A stretch of DNA of 38,209 nt from Chloroflexota bacterium (GTDB lineage: Bacteria > Chloroflexota > Anaerolineae > B4-G1), in assembly GCA_011048615.1 (NCBI GenBank), contig DSDT01000134.1, positions 1 to 38,209 on the forward strand. The letters are read 5' to 3'. This document shows positions 29,001 through 38,209 of the stretch, piece after piece (within the stretch, counting starts at the first letter, position 1; each line of letters begins with the position of its first letter). The position numbers were made by a program, and so were the translations under genes. The notes under the pieces were generated by a model. It ran no database searches. It saw only the letters and a program-made list of their open reading frames with translations, and had not been told where the DNA came from.

Positions 29001-29002
29001 TA

Positions 29003-29031
29003 TGGACGAAGGTGAGGGGCGCGGGTATAAT
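29003..29031 (+). promoter_or_regulatory. Putative promoter of the pseudo-receiver/DUF166 gene
   Basis: TGGACG (29003-29008) and a perfect TATAAT (29026-29031) are 17 bp apart. Transcription would start near 29038, before the ATG at 29071, which supports that start. The leader contains a small CTGAC/GTCAG hairpin. Confidence 0.6.
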
Positions 29032-29070
29032 TGTGACAGTTTGCTGACCAGCAGTCAGTTAATACATCGT

Positions 29071-30210
29071 ATGCACCCTACCCGCGTATTTATTCTTGCT
29101 AGCCAGGCTCTATTTGCCCAGGGAGTCCAAAGCCTCATCTCTGGACAACCGGGCATCCAAGTCGTTGGGGTAGCCGCTGTTGACCCCGGTATCTTTGAGC
29201 GGGTTCAAGCGGCAGCTCCAGACGTGGTCGTCGTTGAAGCTCGGGGAGGAGAACAGAGCCGTCTGGTCACCCAGGTGCTGGAATCGGTCCCGGGAGCCAG
29301 GGTTGTCGCTCTGACATTGGAAGATAATCGCATCCTTACATATTACCAGCAAATGAAGCAAGGGCGACGCATTGAAGACCTGCTGGAGGCAATTGTTGGA
29401 CAGCCATTGGATTGGCAAGGCCGCGGCCCGGAAGCGCTGCGGCTTTTTGTCTTGTTCCAGGGCCACTATGGGCAGCGCATCCTGGATAACCTGCGCCGTT
29501 TCGCCCCAGACACGTGGACGGTTAACGCCTGGCGTGCACCTGTGGACTTGCCCTTGGTGGTAGACGATCCATCGTCGTTTCTCCCACCACATTTTCCCAT
29601 CGCCGACTTGTTGCTTTCTCTGGGGGAGAGTGGGGGGGCGGCGCAGTTACTGCCCAGCATCGTCGAGCGGACAGGGGTGCGGGCTGTCATCGCACCGGTG
29701 GACAATGTGGCCTGGCTGCCAGAAGGTTTGGTTCACCAGCTCGAGGCCCAGTTGGCAGATGTCGGGGTGACGGCTGTTTTTCCCAAGCCGTTTTGCTCTC
29801 TCACAACAGGGAGCTGCAACGTGCGCCACGAAGCAGTCTCTTTCGACGATCCCTGGATCGAAGATTTTGCCCGCCATTTTGGCCGGCCCGTGTTTCGGAT
29901 CGGGTGTGATGATCAAGCGATCACAGGCGTGGAGGTGGAGCGAGACACGGCCTGTGGATGTGCCCGGTCGGTAGGTCGCCAATTGATCGGGGTGAACGTG
30001 GAGGAAGCAGTCGTCCAGGCGGGGTTGTTCCACCATCACTACCCCTGCTTGGCGACGATGCGGGTGGATCCCGGCTTGGGAGAACCGTTGATCCAGGTGG
30101 CGGGCGATTTCGTCCGCCACGCGGTGCAAACCGAGATCGCGGCCTGCCTGCCTGGCGCGGCTTCCAGCCTGATGCCGGAAGGACAGAGTGAGGTGTCGAG
30201 AGATGTGTGA
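29071..30210 (+). CDS. Degenerate receiver domain fused to DUF166 (DfsP-like) protein
   Basis: A 379-residue two-part protein. Residues 1-~115 look like a NarL-type receiver (TRVFILASQALFAQGVQSLI; then IQVVGVAAVDPG; ARVVALTLED), but the acidic pair is replaced by Ala-Ser and the phospho-acceptor Asp is Glu (VVVVEARGG). The remaining ~260 residues match DUF166: VFPKPFCSL, an RDxxCG-type segment (RDTACGCARSVGRQL) and HHHYPCLATM with conserved Cys/His. DUF166 is a Cys-rich family of anaerobes and archaea with no settled function; selenocysteine versions are known, and the CGC here may be the cysteine form. A longer reading from 29002 would put its start codon upstream of the likely transcription start. 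There is no clear ribosome binding site. It lies directly upstream of fhs. Confidence 0.78.
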   Translation: MHPTRVFILASQALFAQGVQSLISGQPGIQVVGVAAVDPGIFERVQAAAPDVVVVEARGGEQSRLVTQVLESVPGARVVALTLEDNRILTYYQQMKQGRRIEDLLEAIVGQPLDWQGRGPEALRLFVLFQGHYGQRILDNLRRFAPDTWTVNAWRAPVDLPLVVDDPSSFLPPHFPIADLLLSLGESGGAAQLLPSIVERTGVRAVIAPVDNVAWLPEGLVHQLEAQLADVGVTAVFPKPFCSLTTGSCNVRHEAVSFDDPWIEDFARHFGRPVFRIGCDDQAITGVEVERDTACGCARSVGRQLIGVNVEEAVVQAGLFHHHYPCLATMRVDPGLGEPLIQVAGDFVRHAVQTEIAACLPGAASSLMPEGQSEVSRDV

Positions 30211-30258
30211 GACAATACCATAGTTTCAGACGTTGAGGGGACAGCGTCGAGCATACTT

Positions 30259-30267
30259 TGGTATACT
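30259..30267 (+). promoter_or_regulatory. Possible extended -10 promoter of the fhs operon
   Basis: TGGTATACT fits the extended -10 pattern TGnTATAAT, about 40 bp upstream of the fhs ATG. No good -35 box is visible, so this is tentative. Confidence 0.35.
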
Positions 30268-30308
30268 GTACTCTTGTTGAAGCCGTTAGAATTACCAAGG
30301 AGGTAAAA

Positions 30309-32204
30309 ATGCCAGTCAAACGTTTGGACCCAATACCCAGTGACATCGAGATCGCGCAGGCAGCCGAGCTACTTCCCATTGTCGAGGTCGCCAAGAGTGT
30401 CGGACTTACCGAGGACGACATCGACCTGCAGGGAAAATGGAAGGCCAAGGTCCACTTGGACGTGCTCGAAAAGTTCAAGGACCGTCCCAACGGCAAGTAC
30501 ATTGATGTGACTGCTATCACCCCCACGCCTCTGGGCGAGGGCAAGACGGTCACCACAATCGGTGTGAGCCAGGGGTTGCACTATATCGGCAAGAAGGTCT
30601 TTACCTGCATTCGTCAGCCTTCGCAGGGCCCGACCTTTGGCATCAAGGGTGGGGCGGCCGGTGGCGGCTATGCCCAGATTGTGCCGATGGAGGACTTTAA
30701 CCTGCATCTCACCGGAGACATCCATGCCGTAGGCGCGGCCCACAACCTGCTGGCTGCGGCGATCAACAATCGCATGGCAAAAGAAGCCCGCTGGAGCACG
30801 GACTATATGGCCAAGGCGCTCTGCCCGAACGACGAGTATACACCGAGCATGCGCAAGCGACTGGAAAAGTTGGGCATCGAGTCGGAAAAGCCCTCTGACC
30901 TGAACGACGAGGACAAGGAGCGCATGTTCCGCCTGAACATCGATCCCGATGGTATCCAGTGGCGGCGCGTGGTCGACGTCAGTGACGCCGCGCTGCGCAA
31001 CATCATTGTCGGTCTGGGGGGCGTCAACAACGGTGTAGTGCGCGAGACGGGGTACGACATCACGGTCGCCTCCGAGATCATGGCCGCGCTGGCGATGTGC
31101 AGTGATCTGGCCGACCTGCGCGAGCGTATGGGCCGCATCATCATCGGCACGAGTAAGGCCGGAGGGTTGAGTAGTAAAGGGTCTGTGGACCCCATCACGG
31201 CCGAGGACCTGAACGTGGCCGGCGCGATGACCGTCCTGCTCAAGGATGCCATCATGCCGAACATGATGCAGACGTTGGCTGGCAGCCCAGCTTTCGTCCA
31301 CTGCGGCCCCTTCGCCAACATCGCCCAGGGCAACAGTTCCATCATCGCCGACAAGATCGCCCTCAAGCTGGTGGGACCAGAAGGCTACGTGGTCACAGAG
31401 TCCGGCTTTGGCGCCGACTGTGGAATGGAAAAGTTCATGAACCTCAAGTGCCGCTACAGCGGGCTGGTCCCCGACTGCGTGGTGATAGTCTGCACCGTCC
31501 GTGCGCTCAAGATGCACGGCGGCGGTCCCAAGGTCGTCGCCGGCAAGCCGCTGGACAGGGCCTACACCGAGGAGAACCTGGAGCTGTTGGAAAAGGGTCT
31601 GCCCAACCTGCTGCAACACGTCGAGAACGCGGTCAAATTCGGCGTGCCGGTGGTGGTGGCGATCAACCGCTTCAAATACGACACCGAGGCCGAGCTCGAA
31701 CTGATCCGCACGCGGGCCAAGAAGACAGGCGCCGAGGACGCGGTGATGCACAACGTCTGGGCTATGGGCGGCGAGGGCGGCGCGGACCTGGCCCGGGCAG
31801 TCGTCGCGGCCTGCGAGAAGTCAAACCACTTCCACTACCTCTACGAGGACGACATGTCCATCAAGGAAAAGATCGAGACCATCGTGCGCGAGATTTACCG
31901 CGCCGATGGAGTGGATTACACACCCGAGGCGGAGGCCAAGATCAAGCTCTTTACCGATATGGGGCTGGCGCACCTGCCGCTCTGTATGGCCAAGACCCAC
32001 CTCTCGTTCACGCACGACCCGGCGATCAAGGGCACGCCGCGCGGATGGCGCATGCCCGTCACCGACGTGCGGGCCAGCGTCGGCGCTGGCTTCATCTTCC
32101 CGCTATGCGGAACGATGAAGACCATGCCCGGCCTGCCCACCCGACCGGTTTTTACGGATATTGATATAGACGTGGAGACGGGGAAGGTTCTAGGACTATC
32201 ATAA
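30309..32204 (+). CDS. fhs: Formate--tetrahydrofolate ligase (long form)
   Basis: Fhs makes 10-formyl-tetrahydrofolate from formate, THF and ATP, the first THF step of the methyl branch of the Wood-Ljungdahl pathway. The chain has 631 residues; many bacterial forms have about 557. Signatures are TPTPLGEGKTVTT (about residues 71-83, nucleotide loop), RQPSQGPTFGIKGGAAGGGYAQ, DFNLHLTGDIHA, NNRM, and the C-terminal PGLPTRPVFTDIDID. Part of the extra length is a charged segment near residues 175-215 (MRKRLEKLGIESEK ... DEDKERMFRLN). The ATG at 30309 has a perfect AAGGAGGT; the longer frame from 30258 is not needed. It heads a run of four genes: fhs, an HMA-like gene, cooS and acsB-acsD. Confidence 0.97.
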   Translation: MPVKRLDPIPSDIEIAQAAELLPIVEVAKSVGLTEDDIDLQGKWKAKVHLDVLEKFKDRPNGKYIDVTAITPTPLGEGKTVTTIGVSQGLHYIGKKVFTCIRQPSQGPTFGIKGGAAGGGYAQIVPMEDFNLHLTGDIHAVGAAHNLLAAAINNRMAKEARWSTDYMAKALCPNDEYTPSMRKRLEKLGIESEKPSDLNDEDKERMFRLNIDPDGIQWRRVVDVSDAALRNIIVGLGGVNNGVVRETGYDITVASEIMAALAMCSDLADLRERMGRIIIGTSKAGGLSSKGSVDPITAEDLNVAGAMTVLLKDAIMPNMMQTLAGSPAFVHCGPFANIAQGNSSIIADKIALKLVGPEGYVVTESGFGADCGMEKFMNLKCRYSGLVPDCVVIVCTVRALKMHGGGPKVVAGKPLDRAYTEENLELLEKGLPNLLQHVENAVKFGVPVVVAINRFKYDTEAELELIRTRAKKTGAEDAVMHNVWAMGGEGGADLARAVVAACEKSNHFHYLYEDDMSIKEKIETIVREIYRADGVDYTPEAEAKIKLFTDMGLAHLPLCMAKTHLSFTHDPAIKGTPRGWRMPVTDVRASVGAGFIFPLCGTMKTMPGLPTRPVFTDIDIDVETGKVLGLS

Positions 32205-32211
32205 AACTTGT

Positions 32212-32253
32212 GTGATGCGTGAAATACGATGCGAGTTGTGTTTCACGCATCAC
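32212..32253 (+). promoter_or_regulatory. Strong hairpin between fhs and the HMA-like gene
   Basis: GTGATGCGTGAAA (32212-32224) and TTTCACGCATCAC (32241-32253) form a perfect 13-bp stem with a 16-nt loop, starting 7 bp after the fhs stop. Only a short ACTATTTTC follows, so it is not a classical terminator. It may stabilise or process the mRNA, or attenuate transcription into cooS. Confidence 0.6.
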
Positions 32254-32277
32254 GTACTATTTTCAGGAGGTAACGAG

Positions 32278-32613
32278 ATGAACAAAGTGGTACTTGATGT
32301 ACCGACTCTCTGGGCCGATCACCACGTCCTGAAGGTGCGGGAGGCGCTGAACGGCCTGGCGGGAGTAGATGGCGTGTACGCCAGCGCCGCCTGGAAGCAG
32401 GTCCTGGTCAGCTACGATGAGGCCCAGGTAGATCAGACGGCGATTGAAACTGCGTTGGCCGACGCCGGTTACCCAGTGGGTGTCGGGCAGATGCCGGTCC
32501 TGGTGCAGCCGACGGAGATTCAGCGCGACCCCCAGTGGGGCGTGTTGGGCTTCCGAATCACCGAGACGAATATGGCTGACCTGGAGATGTCGGGCGAGTT
32601 CCGACGGTACTAG
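32278..32613 (+). CDS. Small HMA-like (ferredoxin-fold) protein lacking CxxC
   Basis: A 111-residue protein whose first ~70 residues resemble the heavy-metal-associated (HMA) beta-alpha-beta fold: KVVLDVPTLWADHHVLKVREAL, LAGVDGVYASAAWKQVLVSYDEAQ, and ETALADAGYPVG. The usual MxCxxC metal loop is replaced by TLWADHH, with two histidines and an Asp. The C-terminal ~40 residues (VLVQPTEIQRDPQWGVLGFRITETNMADLEMSGEF) are not recognised. The ATG has CAGGAGGT upstream. It lies between fhs and cooS with short gaps, so it may assist the nickel/iron enzymes next to it, but no direct evidence for this exists in the sequence. Confidence 0.75.
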   Translation: MNKVVLDVPTLWADHHVLKVREALNGLAGVDGVYASAAWKQVLVSYDEAQVDQTAIETALADAGYPVGVGQMPVLVQPTEIQRDPQWGVLGFRITETNMADLEMSGEFRRY

Positions 32614-32640: not shown

Positions 32641-34656
32641 ATGGCAAAGAAAGAAGCTCGAACACCGGAAGAGACGAGTAAGGATCGCGTATCGGTGGCG
32701 CTGATCGAGCGGGCGTGCGCGATCGAGGTTGAGACCGCGTTCACGCGGGCCGATGCCATCGCAGCCTGTAACATCGGCGGCGCGGGCCTGTGCTGCAAAA
32801 ACTGCGCTATGGGGCCGTGCCGTTTGGTCGGCAAAACCGTGCGTGGCGTGTGCGGCGCGACGTTGAGTACCATCGCGGCCCGCAACTTCGCCCGGGCGGT
32901 GGCGGCGGGCGCTTCGGCGCACTCGGACCACGGCCGCGGCCTGGCCTATACGCTGTTGGAAGCCGTTGAGGGACACGCGCCCGACTATGGCGTCAAAGAT
33001 CGGTTCAAGTTGATGGAGGTCGCCGGCTATCTGGGCGTCCCCGTTACGGACGAGGAGGGAGCGCTGCGACCCGAGGACGAGATCGCGCGGGACGTCGCTA
33101 TCGAGTCGCTGAACGAGTTCGGCAAGATCAGGGGGACGTTGACGTACCTGAAGCGCGCCCCGATCAAGCGGCAAAAAGTGTGGCACGAGACGGGCATCGA
33201 ACCGCGCAGCGTGGATCGGGAGGTGGTCGAACTGCTGCACCGCACTCACATCGGCAACGACCAGGACGCCGAGCACATCCTCGATCACACCATGCGCTGC
33301 GCCCTGGGCGACGGCTGGGGCGGCTCGATGTTGGCGACGGACCTGTCGGATATTCTGTTCGGCACCCCTGCGCCGGTGCGCGCCGACTCCAACCTGGGGG
33401 TGCTTGGGGAGAACAAAGTGAACATTATCGTCCACGGTCACGAGCCGACCCTATCGGAAATGATCGTGGCGGCGTCCCTCGATCCGGAGATCATCGCCTA
33501 TGCGAAGAGCAAGGGCGCCGATGGGATCCAGTTGGCCGGCATCTGCTGCACGGCGAATGAAACGCTGATGCGCCAGGGCGTGCCGCTGGCTGGCAACTTC
33601 TTGCAGCAGGAACTCGCCATCCTCACCGGCGCGGTCGAAGCGATGGTGGTGGACATTCAGTGCATCTTCCAGGGCCTGGTGTCCGTGGCGGAGCGTTTCC
33701 ACACGGAGATCATCACCACGTCGCCCAAGGCGAAGATCACCGGCGCTACCCACATCGAGTTCGAGGAGAGCCGGGCGTTGGAGATCGCCAAGGAGATCGT
33801 CCGGCGGGCGATTGACCACTTCCCCGAACGCGGCGAGACGATTGTCCCCGAAGATCATAGCGAGTTGGTGCCTGGCTTTTCGCACGAGTACATTGATTAT
33901 GCGCTGGGCGGTTTCTACCGCGGCTCCTTACGCCCGCTCAACGACGCGATCATCACCGGGCGCATCCGGGGTGTGGTGGCGAACATCGGCTGCAACAACG
34001 CCCGCATCTGCCACGATTCGCTCCACCAGTACGTCGTGGAGGAGTTCCTCAAGAACGACATTCTGGTGGTCGAGACCGGCTGCGGCGCGATTGCCAGCGC
34101 CAAGCAGGGGTTGATGACGCCAGAGGCGGCGTTGCAAGCGGCCGGGCCTGGACTGCGCGAGGTCTGTGAGACGGTGGGAATCCCGCCCGTGCTGCACATG
34201 GGCTCCTGCGTGGACAACTCCCGCATTCTGACGGTGTTGGCGCAGATGGCGACCGAGGGTGGTTTGGGCGAGGACATCTCCGATATCCCGGCTGTCGGTA
34301 TGGCGCCGGAGTGGATGAGCGAAAAGGCGCTCTCCATCGCCACCTACTGCGTGGCGTCGGGCGCGTACGTCATCCTGGGCGGCAGTGACGGCCCTGTCTC
34401 CGGCAGCGAAGAAGCGCTGCGTATCATGAGCGACGGCTGGGAGAAGAAGGTCGGCGGTCGGCTGGAGTTCATCGCGGACGGAGAGGAGATCGTCCGTCGT
34501 TCGATCGCGCACATTGACAAGAAACGAGCTGCGCTCGGTCTGCCCGAATATGACCCCAGCAAGTGGGGCCGCAGCGGCGACCACCGCATACCAGAGTTGC
34601 TGGCGTTGCCTCTGGAGGAGCGCATCGAGGCCGCTTATGGCGTGGCAGGAAAGTAG
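32641..34656 (+). CDS. cooS: Ni-dependent carbon monoxide dehydrogenase catalytic subunit
   Basis: CooS/AcsA interconverts CO2 and CO at a Ni-Fe-S C-cluster and supplies CO to acetyl-CoA synthase. The 671-residue length is normal. The N-terminal Cys cluster CNIGGAGLCCKNCAMGPC (C43, C51, C52, C55, C60) and the later RGVCGA bind the B/D clusters. C-cluster ligand motifs are present: VHGHEPTLSE (His 265-267), GICCTANE (C302/303), IQCIFQG (C341), GCNNARICH (C451), TGCGAIASAK (C481) and GSCVDN (C523). C451 and C481 are 30 apart, the same as C446/C476 in Carboxydothermus CooS II. The ATG has GGAGGG upstream. It precedes the ACS fusion gene by 13 bp, the arrangement of acetogenic CODH/ACS operons. 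No CooC maturation gene lies in the window. Confidence 0.97.
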   Translation: MAKKEARTPEETSKDRVSVALIERACAIEVETAFTRADAIAACNIGGAGLCCKNCAMGPCRLVGKTVRGVCGATLSTIAARNFARAVAAGASAHSDHGRGLAYTLLEAVEGHAPDYGVKDRFKLMEVAGYLGVPVTDEEGALRPEDEIARDVAIESLNEFGKIRGTLTYLKRAPIKRQKVWHETGIEPRSVDREVVELLHRTHIGNDQDAEHILDHTMRCALGDGWGGSMLATDLSDILFGTPAPVRADSNLGVLGENKVNIIVHGHEPTLSEMIVAASLDPEIIAYAKSKGADGIQLAGICCTANETLMRQGVPLAGNFLQQELAILTGAVEAMVVDIQCIFQGLVSVAERFHTEIITTSPKAKITGATHIEFEESRALEIAKEIVRRAIDHFPERGETIVPEDHSELVPGFSHEYIDYALGGFYRGSLRPLNDAIITGRIRGVVANIGCNNARICHDSLHQYVVEEFLKNDILVVETGCGAIASAKQGLMTPEAALQAAGPGLREVCETVGIPPVLHMGSCVDNSRILTVLAQMATEGGLGEDISDIPAVGMAPEWMSEKALSIATYCVASGAYVILGGSDGPVSGSEEALRIMSDGWEKKVGGRLEFIADGEEIVRRSIAHIDKKRAALGLPEYDPSKWGRSGDHRIPELLALPLEERIEAAYGVAGK

Positions 34657-34669
34657 GGGGTGAGAGACT

Positions 34670-37600
34670 ATGTCTAAGTATATTGCAACACGCGCCATTC
34701 GCGGCGCGAACGCGCTCGTGGCCGAGGCCGATGCGATGCTACAGCAGGCCATCGCCGAGAAAGGACCCGATACGCCGGTCGTTTTTCCGAACACCGCGTA
34801 TTACCTGCCGGTCACGTATGGGATGTTGAATCACAAGGTCGAGACCTTGAAGGACCTGGAACCGGCGCTGGCGCACGCTCGACGGCTGCTCCATCCCGTG
34901 CCGGAAAATCAGCTCTGGGTCCCGTACCTGGGTGAGACGCTCGACAGCGGCATGGCGACGCTGCTGGCGGCTGAGGCCATCGAGGGGGTGCGGTTCGTCT
35001 ACGGCGAGCAGCCGGAGCTCTATCCCGGGTTGGAGCTGACCGGCGGCACGGCGTACCCTGATTTCCAGGGCGATGGTCACCTGAACGGCCCCATTGACGA
35101 CATTCAACTCCGCTCCTGGGGTATCCAACTAGTGGATGGCCGGATGCCGGGCTTCGCCGCCATCGTCGGCGCGGCGCGGACGAATGAAGCCGCCGTCGCT
35201 ATCGTGCGCGAACTTCAGAAGCGCAACATCTTGATCTTTTTGTGCGGCAACACCAATGGTCGTTCGATGATTGATCAGCTTCAGGAGGAAGGAGTCGAGA
35301 TGGGGTACGATACGTACATCGTTCCCTTCGGCAAAGACACCATCTCGGCGATCTATCCCCTCGGTTTTGCGACCCGGTCGGGTCTGACCTTCGGCGGCCT
35401 CAAGCCCGGTCAGTGGCGCGAGATTCTGCTCTACAACAAGTTCCGCGTCTTCGCCTTCGTGTTGGCGCTGGGCGAGGTGGACGATCTGAAGTACGCTGCC
35501 GCCGCCGGGGCCATCTCTTACGGTTTCCCGACCATCGCGGATACAGTCATTCCGGAGATTCTGCCCACCGGCGTCACTCGTTACGAACACGTCATTTCGA
35601 TGCCGTGGAATGAGATTGACGCCGAAACCGAGACGGAGCGGGCGGCCAAACTGGTGCAGCGGGCCATCGAGGTGCGCGGCGTCAAGATCAAGATCACCGA
35701 TGTGCCCGTCCCTGTCCCCTATGGTTCTGCTTTCGAGGGCGAGGTCGTGCGCCGCGCCGATATGCGGGTCGAGTTCGGTGGCAAGAACAGCCGCGCTTTC
35801 GAGTACCTGCGTATGGTGCCGATGGACGATGTGGAGGATCACAGGATCGAGGTCATCGGCCCCGGCTTTGAGGATGTGGAAGAGGGCGGCTCGATAGACC
35901 TGGGCATCCTGATCGAGGTGGCGGGCCGCAAGATGCAGGAAGATTTCGAGCCGGTGCTGGAGCGGCAGGTGCACTATTTCATCAACGGCGCATCCGGCAT
36001 CCAGCACATTGGCCAGCGAGACATCGCCTGGATCCGCATCAGCAAGGCGGCGGTCGAGAAGGGCTTCGACCTGAAGCACTTTGGCGAGATCCTGTACGCA
36101 CGTTTCCACGCCGACTTTGGCGCCATCGTGGACAAGGTGCAGGTCAAGCTCATCACCGACCCCGATCTGCACGCCGAGTGGCTGGAAAAGGCGCGCATAG
36201 CCTACGACCTGCGCAACCGCCGTCTGGCCGACCTGACCGACGAGGCGGTGGATACGTTCTATGACTGCACGTTGTGCCAGTCCTTCGCTCCCACCCACGT
36301 CTGCATCGTCAGCCCGCAGCGGCTGGGCTTGTGCGGCGCGTACAACTGGCTGGACTGCAAGGCCTCCAACCAGATCAACCCTACCGGCCCTAACCAACCG
36401 GTTCCCAAGGGGAAGCTGATTGATCCGGTCAAGGGGTACTGGGAGGGCACGAACGAGAACGCTGTCAAGAACTCGCAGGGCACGGTCACCGAGGTCGCTC
36501 TATACTCTATCATGGAGAACCCGATGACGGCCTGCGGCTGCTTCGAGTGTATCGTGATGTACATCCCTGAAGTTGAGGGTGTGATGGTCGTCAGCCGGGA
36601 GGATCCCAGCATGACGCCGGCCGGGATGACCTTTTCCACGCTGGCCGGTATGGCCGGCGGTGGCTTGCAAACCCCTGGCGTGATGGGCGTGGGCAAGTTC
36701 TATCTGACCAGTCCCAAGTTCATCTCTGCCGATGGCGGGTTCAAGCGCGTGGTGTGGATGTCCAGTTTCCTCAAGGACTCGATGAAGGAAGAACTGGCCG
36801 CGGTGGCGGAGCGCGAAGGGATACCAGATTTGATCGAACGGATCGCCGACGAGCGCAAGGTCACAACGGTGGACGAGCTGGTAGACTGGTTGGAAGAGGT
36901 TCAACACCCGGTATGTGAGATGGGGGTGATGCAGGCGGCCTCAGGAGCACCGGCCGAAGCAGAGCCCCAGGTAGCCGTTCCAACGGCTAAACCGAGGGTG
37001 GAAGAGAAGCCGGCTGCGGCCGAGGCGCCGAAAGAGGAGCCCAAGCCAGCCGTTGCAGCGGTCCCCGCACCGCCACCTACGTCCGTTGTGGCAGAGGTTC
37101 CTGCGCCAGCACCCAAGCCGGTCGCCGCGCCGCAGTTACCCGCCGGCGCCGATGCGCAGGCCATTGTTCAAGCCAGCGCTGAGGTCGTCCTGGGCAGCAT
37201 CCGGCGAGCGTTGGAGGCTGCACTGCGGGAGCTGGGGGGAGAGGTTCCACCCTCGGCAGTGCCGACCGCGCCAGCGGCCGTAGAGGTCGAACTGGCACCA
37301 TCGGAGGCAGCACCAGCGCCGGCCAAGATCGCTCGGCCGGAGGTCCCCCCCTGGTCTGAGGAGCGGGAGACGCTCGAGTTCCTCAAAGAGACGTGGATGG
37401 GTAAGGTGCGCGAGGTGACGTTGGGTGCTACTTCCGCCGAGGGGGGCACGCGAACCACCACCGTCACTGTCGGTGGTCAAGCGGCGATGCCGTTTATGAG
37501 CCTGGAGGGTGAGCTGCCTCACGCGCCAATCGTGGCTATCGAGATTCAGGACCGCAAGCCAGATGACTGGTCGCCGCTGCTGATGGAAGCGTGGGGCGAC

Positions 37601-38209
37601 GTCGTGAACGATCCGGGTGAGTGGGCCAGGGCGGCCGAGCAGGCCGGGGCCAACGTCATCCTGCTTCAACTCAGCCTGACCGACGCCGAGGGCAACCCGA
37701 ATACGCCGGAGAAGGCGGTCGCAGCCATGAAAAAGGTGCTGGAGGCGACAGGACTGCCGCTCATCGTGCTCGGTCCGGGCCAGGTGGACGCGGATAACAC
37801 GCTGTTGGTGCCCATCGCCGAGGCCGCGGCAGGAGAGCGCATCCTGTTGGGTCTGTGCGAGGAAAAGAACTATCGCACCATCGTGGCAGCGGCGCTGGCT
37901 CACGATCAACTGGTCATCGCTCGTACCGCGATGGACGTCAATCTGGCAAAGCAGCTCAACATCCTGATCAGCGATATGGGCTTGCCCCTGGACCGGATCG
38001 TGATGGATCCGACCTGCGCCGGGGTGGGTTACGGGATGGAATACGGCTACTCGGTCATGGAGCGGCTGCGACTGGCGGCGCTCCAGGGGGATAGTATGAC
38101 CCAACTGCCGATGATCGTCACCGTGGGGTACGAAGCGTGGCGACAGAAGGAGAGCAAGGTGGGCGAGGGCGTCCCGGAGGCGTGGGGCGACTGGAAGGAA
38201 CGGGCCATC
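34670..38209 (+). CDS. acsB-acsD: Acetyl-CoA synthase (AcsB) fused to corrinoid protein small subunit (AcsD/CdhD), 3'-partial
   Basis: An open frame of at least 1180 codons, without a stop, runs to the window edge. Residues 1-~752 are bacterial-type acetyl-CoA synthase including the CODH-contacting N-terminal domain. A-cluster cysteines are C533, C536, C545, C555 (DCTLCQSF ... THVCIV ... LGLCGAYN) and C622/C624 (TACGCFEC); their spacings (3, 9, 10, 67, 2) are exactly those of Moorella AcsB. After the usual ACS end (HPVCEMGVM) comes a ~140-residue Ala/Pro/Glu-rich linker, and from about residue 890 the CFeSP small subunit begins (MGKVREVTLGAT, GGTRTTTVTVGG, VAIEIQDRKPDDW, ARTAMDVNLAKQLNILI, GYGMEYGYSVMERLRLAAL, VTVGYEAW). 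In Moorella these are separate genes. ACS joins methyl, CO and CoA; the corrinoid protein delivers the methyl. The start has GGGGGTGAG upstream. Confidence 0.93.
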   Translation, partial: MSKYIATRAIRGANALVAEADAMLQQAIAEKGPDTPVVFPNTAYYLPVTYGMLNHKVETLKDLEPALAHARRLLHPVPENQLWVPYLGETLDSGMATLLAAEAIEGVRFVYGEQPELYPGLELTGGTAYPDFQGDGHLNGPIDDIQLRSWGIQLVDGRMPGFAAIVGAARTNEAAVAIVRELQKRNILIFLCGNTNGRSMIDQLQEEGVEMGYDTYIVPFGKDTISAIYPLGFATRSGLTFGGLKPGQWREILLYNKFRVFAFVLALGEVDDLKYAAAAGAISYGFPTIADTVIPEILPTGVTRYEHVISMPWNEIDAETETERAAKLVQRAIEVRGVKIKITDVPVPVPYGSAFEGEVVRRADMRVEFGGKNSRAFEYLRMVPMDDVEDHRIEVIGPGFEDVEEGGSIDLGILIEVAGRKMQEDFEPVLERQVHYFINGASGIQHIGQRDIAWIRISKAAVEKGFDLKHFGEILYARFHADFGAIVDKVQVKLITDPDLHAEWLEKARIAYDLRNRRLADLTDEAVDTFYDCTLCQSFAPTHVCIVSPQRLGLCGAYNWLDCKASNQINPTGPNQPVPKGKLIDPVKGYWEGTNENAVKNSQGTVTEVALYSIMENPMTACGCFECIVMYIPEVEGVMVVSREDPSMTPAGMTFSTLAGMAGGGLQTPGVMGVGKFYLTSPKFISADGGFKRVVWMSSFLKDSMKEELAAVAEREGIPDLIERIADERKVTTVDELVDWLEEVQHPVCEMGVMQAASGAPAEAEPQVAVPTAKPRVEEKPAAAEAPKEEPKPAVAAVPAPPPTSVVAEVPAPAPKPVAAPQLPAGADAQAIVQASAEVVLGSIRRALEAALRELGGEVPPSAVPTAPAAVEVELAPSEAAPAPAKIARPEVPPWSEERETLEFLKETWMGKVREVTLGATSAEGGTRTTTVTVGGQAAMPFMSLEGELPHAPIVAIEIQDRKPDDWSPLLMEAWGDVVNDPGEWARAAEQAGANVILLQLSLTDAEGNPNTPEKAVAAMKKVLEATGLPLIVLGPGQVDADNTLLVPIAEAAAGERILLGLCEEKNYRTIVAAALAHDQLVIARTAMDVNLAKQLNILISDMGLPLDRIVMDPTCAGVGYGMEYGYSVMERLRLAALQGDSMTQLPMIVTVGYEAWRQKESKVGEGVPEAWGDWKERAI

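Follow-up and report, generated by a model that had tools for sequence, protein, structure and literature searches.

Joining of acsB and acsD in one gene

Does the last gene of this stretch of DNA encode acetyl-CoA synthase (ACS, AcsB) and the small subunit of the corrinoid/iron-sulfur protein (CoFeSP), AcsD, as one polypeptide, and what could such a join do for the enzyme? The window, by which we mean the whole stretch of 38,209 nucleotides analyzed here, is an entire contig (C5) of a genome of 425 contigs. Translation of its open reading frames showed that the frame in question opens with an ATG at 34670 and continues for 1180 codons without a stop until it runs off the contig end. The gene and its surroundings in the window are laid out as follows:

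30258..32204, + strand: formate-tetrahydrofolate ligase (FTHFS), same pathway (Pfam/NCBIfam)
32641..34656, + strand: acsA, CO dehydrogenase (CODH) catalytic subunit, 671 aa, partner of the ACS part (Pfam/NCBIfam)
34657..34663, + strand: Shine-Dalgarno-like GGGGTGA, directly 3' of the acsA stop codon and 6 nt 5' of the fusion ATG
34670..38209, + strand: fusion of acsB and acsD, codons 1 to 1180 out of 1219 (translated frame; remainder on contig C78)
34670..36925, + strand: acetyl-CoA synthase part, residues 1-752 (A1 CODH_A_N 23-110, A2 CdhC 347-499, A3 ACS_CODH_B_C 512-753)
36266..36541, + strand: A-cluster ligand stretch, Cys533, 536, 545, 555, 622 and 624 (sequence and structure alignment)
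36926..37153, + strand: linker arm 1, residues 753-828, Ala/Pro/Glu-rich, predicted disordered
37154..37231, + strand: conserved linker helix, residues 829-854, ending ...SIRRALEAALRELG
37232..37375, + strand: linker arm 2, residues 855-902, Ala/Pro-rich, with a conserved PPWSE at its end
37376..38209, + strand: AcsD, CoFeSP small subunit, residues 903-1180, complete to 1219 with C78
38087..38209, + strand: overlap of 123 bp, identical to the terminal sequence of contig C78, joining the contigs (DNA overlap; both contigs end there)

A sequence-only reading of this DNA had claimed that AcsB runs into AcsD as one continuous frame, and the profile scores of both parts, each above cut-off, bear this out. 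The AcsB part matched NF040764 (NCBIfam) over residues 10-752 with 968 bits against a cut-off of 800 and is a full-length A1-A2-A3 enzyme, its A1 domain spanning residues 1 to ~340; the AcsD part matched the delta-subunit model NF003376 (NCBIfam, residues 903-1180, 325.7 bits against 280) and PF03599 (Pfam, 116.6 bits against 24.8). A narrower AcsD model, NF040759, stayed below its cut-off (218.7 of 430) when scored on the chain cut by the contig end. Pfam thus places CODH_A_N, CdhC, ACS_CODH_B_C and CdhD (915-1161) on a single chain, and among solved structures the first part comes closest to the ACS of Carboxydothermus and Moorella, the second to two CoFeSP small subunits, 4djd and 2h9a. The six A-cluster cysteines follow one another in steps of 3, 9, 10, 67 and 2, which we take to be the spacing of the known A-cluster enzyme (Moorella numbering), and they align with those of Carboxydothermus ACS; the canonical spacing read earlier from the letters was therefore correct. 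No internal start codon is present in the fusion where a free-standing AcsD would begin. Furthermore, pN/pS was 0.15 for AcsB, 0.20 for AcsD and 0.35-0.48 for the linker, and since the linker values lie below 1, the linker is translated in the fusion frame.

The remainder of the gene lies on the minus strand of C78 (locus L026). A protein search of the genome against itself showed residues 1140-1180 repeated at the end of C78 with 100% identity, and both contigs end at the exact overlap, as expected from a broken assembly graph. C78 supplies the last 39 codons and the stop; past 38209, where the sequence-only reading had to leave AcsD unfinished, the joined protein is complete at 1219 aa, with acsC and acsE downstream. 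The acsB-acsD join is thereby confirmed as a real gene fusion, comprising a complete AcsB, a linker and AcsD.

On C78, acsC lies ~85 bp 3' of the fusion stop (a 483-codon frame; gamma subunit, 553 bits), followed by acsV, a radical SAM protein gene, a MinD/CooC-like ATPase gene, acsE, folD and hdrB/hdrA-like genes. Genes for CODH, AcsC, AcsE and the activator are thus all present, acsA in the window and acsC, acsV, acsE and folD on C78, and together with the FTHFS gene they make the locus a near-complete Wood-Ljungdahl cluster. Profile and protein searches of the genome found no second acsB and no free-standing acsD; PF03599 otherwise matches acsC, acsE (weakly) and a short stretch on C67. As the fusion is the only acsB and the only acsD of this genome, the chain must fill both roles if the pathway runs.

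Other genes of the cluster also deserve mention. At its head, 29002-30210 encodes a 402-aa DUF166 protein. The FTHFS carries a ~52-residue insertion at 174-225 relative to the Moorella-type enzyme, and part of this insertion, together with the adjoining downstream stretch, weakly matches the mouse protein 2eo2. Between the FTHFS and CODH genes, 32212-32613 encodes a 133-aa protein with a heavy-metal-associated (CopZ/MerP-like) domain, for which metal supply to CODH/ACS is a conceivable role.

Recurrence of the fusion among relatives

Relatives were collected from public genomes by re-translating their DNA. Among the best-scoring 80 of 206 loci, a choice that favours fused genes, 24 were complete fusions, 47 were split and 9 were cut or lacked acsD nearby, and in five of the latter the contig ends within a tail resembling the linker. 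The architecture had been called unusual compared with Moorella and the archaeal complex; this was confirmed, but with 24 of the best 80 relatives fused it is not unique to this genome. To gauge its frequency, we drew an even sample of class Anaerolineae, in which 88 of 199 genomes matched; their DNA was fetched and classified, with earlier loci reused for eleven. Seventy-four were split, three were fused, four more had a contig broken inside the linker and seven were undecided, so that the fused state accounts for 7 of the 81 decidable ACS-bearing genomes (~9%). In the window's own family, seven of eight acsB-bearing genomes were fused, two of these with contigs broken inside the linker, and one (G004) was split. 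A sample of the phylum beyond class Anaerolineae gave no joined AcsB-AcsD match. Within Anaerolineae the fusion thus recurs, but in a minority of genomes, and since about nine tenths of decidable ACS-bearing members are unfused, it is dispensable. A search of the accessible literature found no description of an AcsB-AcsD fusion; each domain is already known, and the AcsB-linker-AcsD arrangement is what differs.

The survey also turned up inteins within acsB of several Anaerolineae, exactly 5' of A-cluster ligands. One site lies before Cys536 (FYDCTL|CQS; L028, L214) and another before Cys622 (PMTA|CGCFEC; L094/L186, L117, L118, L209, L210, L211, L212, L214, L217); L214 carries inteins at both, L209 and L211 carry mini-inteins of ~220 aa, and in L028 and L118 the inteins are recognized by the Pfam models Intein_splicing and LAGLIDADG_3. 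The acsB of the window has none. In addition, some relatives encode a second, distant ACS-like gene of 38-40% identity that lacks the N-terminal ~140 residues (G006:C46:34658-36382, G009:C339:6417-8174 and G033:C217:21187-22917).

Evolutionary history of the fused state

The AcsB tree requires three changes between the fused and split states, at least two of them forced by well-supported branches. A single clade of all fused AcsB was rejected, the constraint lowering the log-likelihood by 176 units (AU p = 0.0001). The AcsD tree likewise needs three changes, and a single fused clade occurs in none of its bootstrap trees, yet is not rejected by the AU test (p = 0.29). Rooting with Carboxydothermus ACS, on a very long outgroup branch, leaves two changes. 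Judging from these trees, the fused/split state has changed at least twice. Lineage I unites the window with Thermoflexia-like and other Anaerolineae MAGs, and lineage II includes Caldilineae MAGs and Candidatus Desulfolinea; L117 and L118 may form a third fused lineage. Independent fusions are the simplest reading of the trees, while a linker helix shared between lineages hints at one fusion followed by several fissions. One fused locus nested among Chloroflexota (L049) comes from a record titled Thermoguttaceae (Planctomycetota), reflecting either a mislabelled bin or horizontal transfer.

A conserved helix within the linker

The linker of the window is ~150 residues long (26% Ala, 19% Pro, 13% Glu), in agreement with the Ala/Pro/Glu-rich composition noted from the sequence. 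It is not featureless, however: a conserved helix at ~829-854 separates two disordered arms. Linkers of fused relatives range from 139 to 285 aa, and every one carries a single helix roughly halfway along, between two disordered arms; the helix reads SIRRALEAALRELGG in lineage I and either SLRQALxAALGALGG or RVDRLERSVKTLIGSLVGALAELG in lineage II. Among lineage I members, sequence identity is 78% in the helix core (843-852), compared to roughly 25-60% in the arms. A profile built on the lineage I helix confidently matched fused proteins only; the five best matches outside the lineage were lineage II linkers, albeit weakly (E 0.009 to 2), and none of the split loci searched gave a convincing match. 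The likeness between the helices of the two lineages could have arisen by convergence. Pfam found no match between residues 753 and 915, and no PDB sequence matched the linker. AlphaFold prediction of the whole chain left residues 756-827 and 860-912 disordered and made 829-854 helical, with a mean pLDDT of 56 and a poor global model; it thus supports only the predicted helix between disordered arms and has no bearing on docking. The amphipathicity of the window's helix was mildly above that of shuffled sequences (p 0.07).

It is possible, though less likely than not, that the helix is a small docking element, kept or independently re-evolved in separate fused lineages, which holds CoFeSP at the CODH/ACS core or brings together the arms of two fusions. 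If so, the linker would be an active conveyor, more than a leash.

In 26 of the 47 split loci (e.g. L082, L106, L069) a gene for a CBS-domain pair lies between acsB and acsD. Of 28 fused loci, 27 lacked this gene in the flanking DNA that was fetched; in the fused locus L118 it lies directly 3' of the fusion. Derivation of the linker from the CBS-domain gene was considered and rejected, as no sequence similarity was seen and the helix profile had no convincing match at split loci. A regulatory or scaffold role of the CBS-domain gene may possibly have been taken over by the fusion.

Proposed tethering of CoFeSP to ACS

What would such a chain do? ACS must open for its A-cluster to be exposed, and the meeting of CoFeSP with ACS is a central step of the Wood-Ljungdahl pathway. 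We favour, with a probability of roughly 0.7, the reading that the fusion works as one polypeptide whose linker tethers the AcsC/AcsD heterodimer to ACS and makes methyl transfer intramolecular. ACS, the two-armed flexible linker with its central helix, and AcsD would remain a single chain in the cell. AcsD would pair non-covalently with AcsC, the corrinoid-bearing subunit, so that each ACS holds its own CoFeSP; as the linker leads from the C-terminal domain of ACS into the beginning of AcsD, AcsC would be recruited via AcsD and stay in reach. The linker would then let the corrinoid domain of AcsC reach AcsE (methyltransferase), AcsV (activator) and the exposed A-cluster inside the complex, and methyl transfer to Ni would proceed at an effective concentration of some 0.4-1.4 mM, a polymer estimate good to an order of magnitude only, as is the estimated reach of ~7-11 nm. 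A 1:1 ratio of ACS to AcsD follows from the architecture.

Tethering of the methyl donor to the A-cluster had been suggested from the sequence, and tethering does stand as the best explanation. However, it is AcsC and not AcsD that bears the corrinoid, in its C-terminal domain (PMC12289521), and the donor could therefore be tethered only via the AcsC-AcsD dimer. In acetogens CoFeSP stands alone (PMC11474084), and in Carboxydothermus the concentrations required for an ACS-CoFeSP complex crowded the grids, so that the pair was not imaged (PMC12289521); a tether therefore has something to gain. In an AlphaFold3 model the corrinoid domain of AcsC meets the ACS C-terminal domain, while AcsD (the CoFeSP beta subunit) contacts the ACS N-terminal domain (PMC12289521). 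According to a 2024 archaeal study no ACS-CoFeSP structure existed (PMC11474084), and a 2025 Carboxydothermus study cites a recent one from C. autoethanogenum (PMC12289521). With fixed stoichiometry and high local concentration, a naturally tethered pair could make both the methyl-transfer state and the value of a tether directly testable.

The same gene could also have arisen near-neutrally, when a stop codon and a gene lying in between were lost, with the linker a mere spacer and equal co-expression the benefit, if any. The acsB and acsD genes do adjoin in most split relatives, some with gaps below 100 bp (L052, L083, L093, L101), and fused and split states occur together within one order. 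The arms are of low complexity and would evolve alike as mere spacers, which counts against tethering. However, the state changed at least twice toward the same layout, a central helix is present in every linker while the arms drift, and the linkers are far longer than simple stop loss requires; we thus consider a near-neutral origin unlikely. Still less probable is a polyprotein that is cut in the linker after translation to yield ordinary AcsB and AcsD, in which case the fusion would matter for expression only: long exposed linkers are protease-prone, but no conserved cleavage motif was seen in the aligned linkers, and the helix is their only strongly conserved element. An assembly or sequencing error that joined the two genes might be suspected in a MAG whose contig ends within the gene, the more so as Pro/Ala-rich linkers do break assemblies (G002, G009, G060, G091). 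Recurrence refutes it, since many independent assemblies carry homologous linkers constrained in frame, and its probability is negligible.

Comparison with known systems

The E2 chains of 2-oxoacid dehydrogenase complexes have Ala/Pro-rich flexible arms and a small helical element between their catalytic parts. The fusion shares this arm-helix-arm layout, whereas lipoyl and peripheral-subunit-binding domains were not found in its linker; by analogy, then, the resemblance is one of layout, not of homology. Split relatives in Anaerolineae (e.g. L050-L055, L106) have the same chromosomal order, with AcsB ~79-85% and AcsD 68-75% identical, but their acsB ends in a stop codon right after A3, with neither linker nor helix. 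The CODH/ACS of acetogens (Moorella, Carboxydothermus, Clostridium autoethanogenum) has the same A1-A2-A3 ACS with its A-cluster and the same set of AcsD, AcsC, AcsE and AcsV; there AcsD is a separate chain of a stand-alone CoFeSP (PMC11474084), whereas here it is covalently joined to ACS through the ~150-residue linker. The likeness proposed here to the archaeal ACDS (alpha2epsilon2, beta and gammadelta; 2.2 MDa) is that CoFeSP would be stably held with ACS. In ACDS, however, CoFeSP is bound non-covalently and ACS lacks A1, whereas in the fusion A1 is present and an extension of ACS leads into AcsD. Next to the two textbook arrangements, stand-alone CoFeSP in acetogens and ACDS in archaea, the fusion would thus be a third one with a covalent link, and it could offer a design for engineering CO2 fixation.
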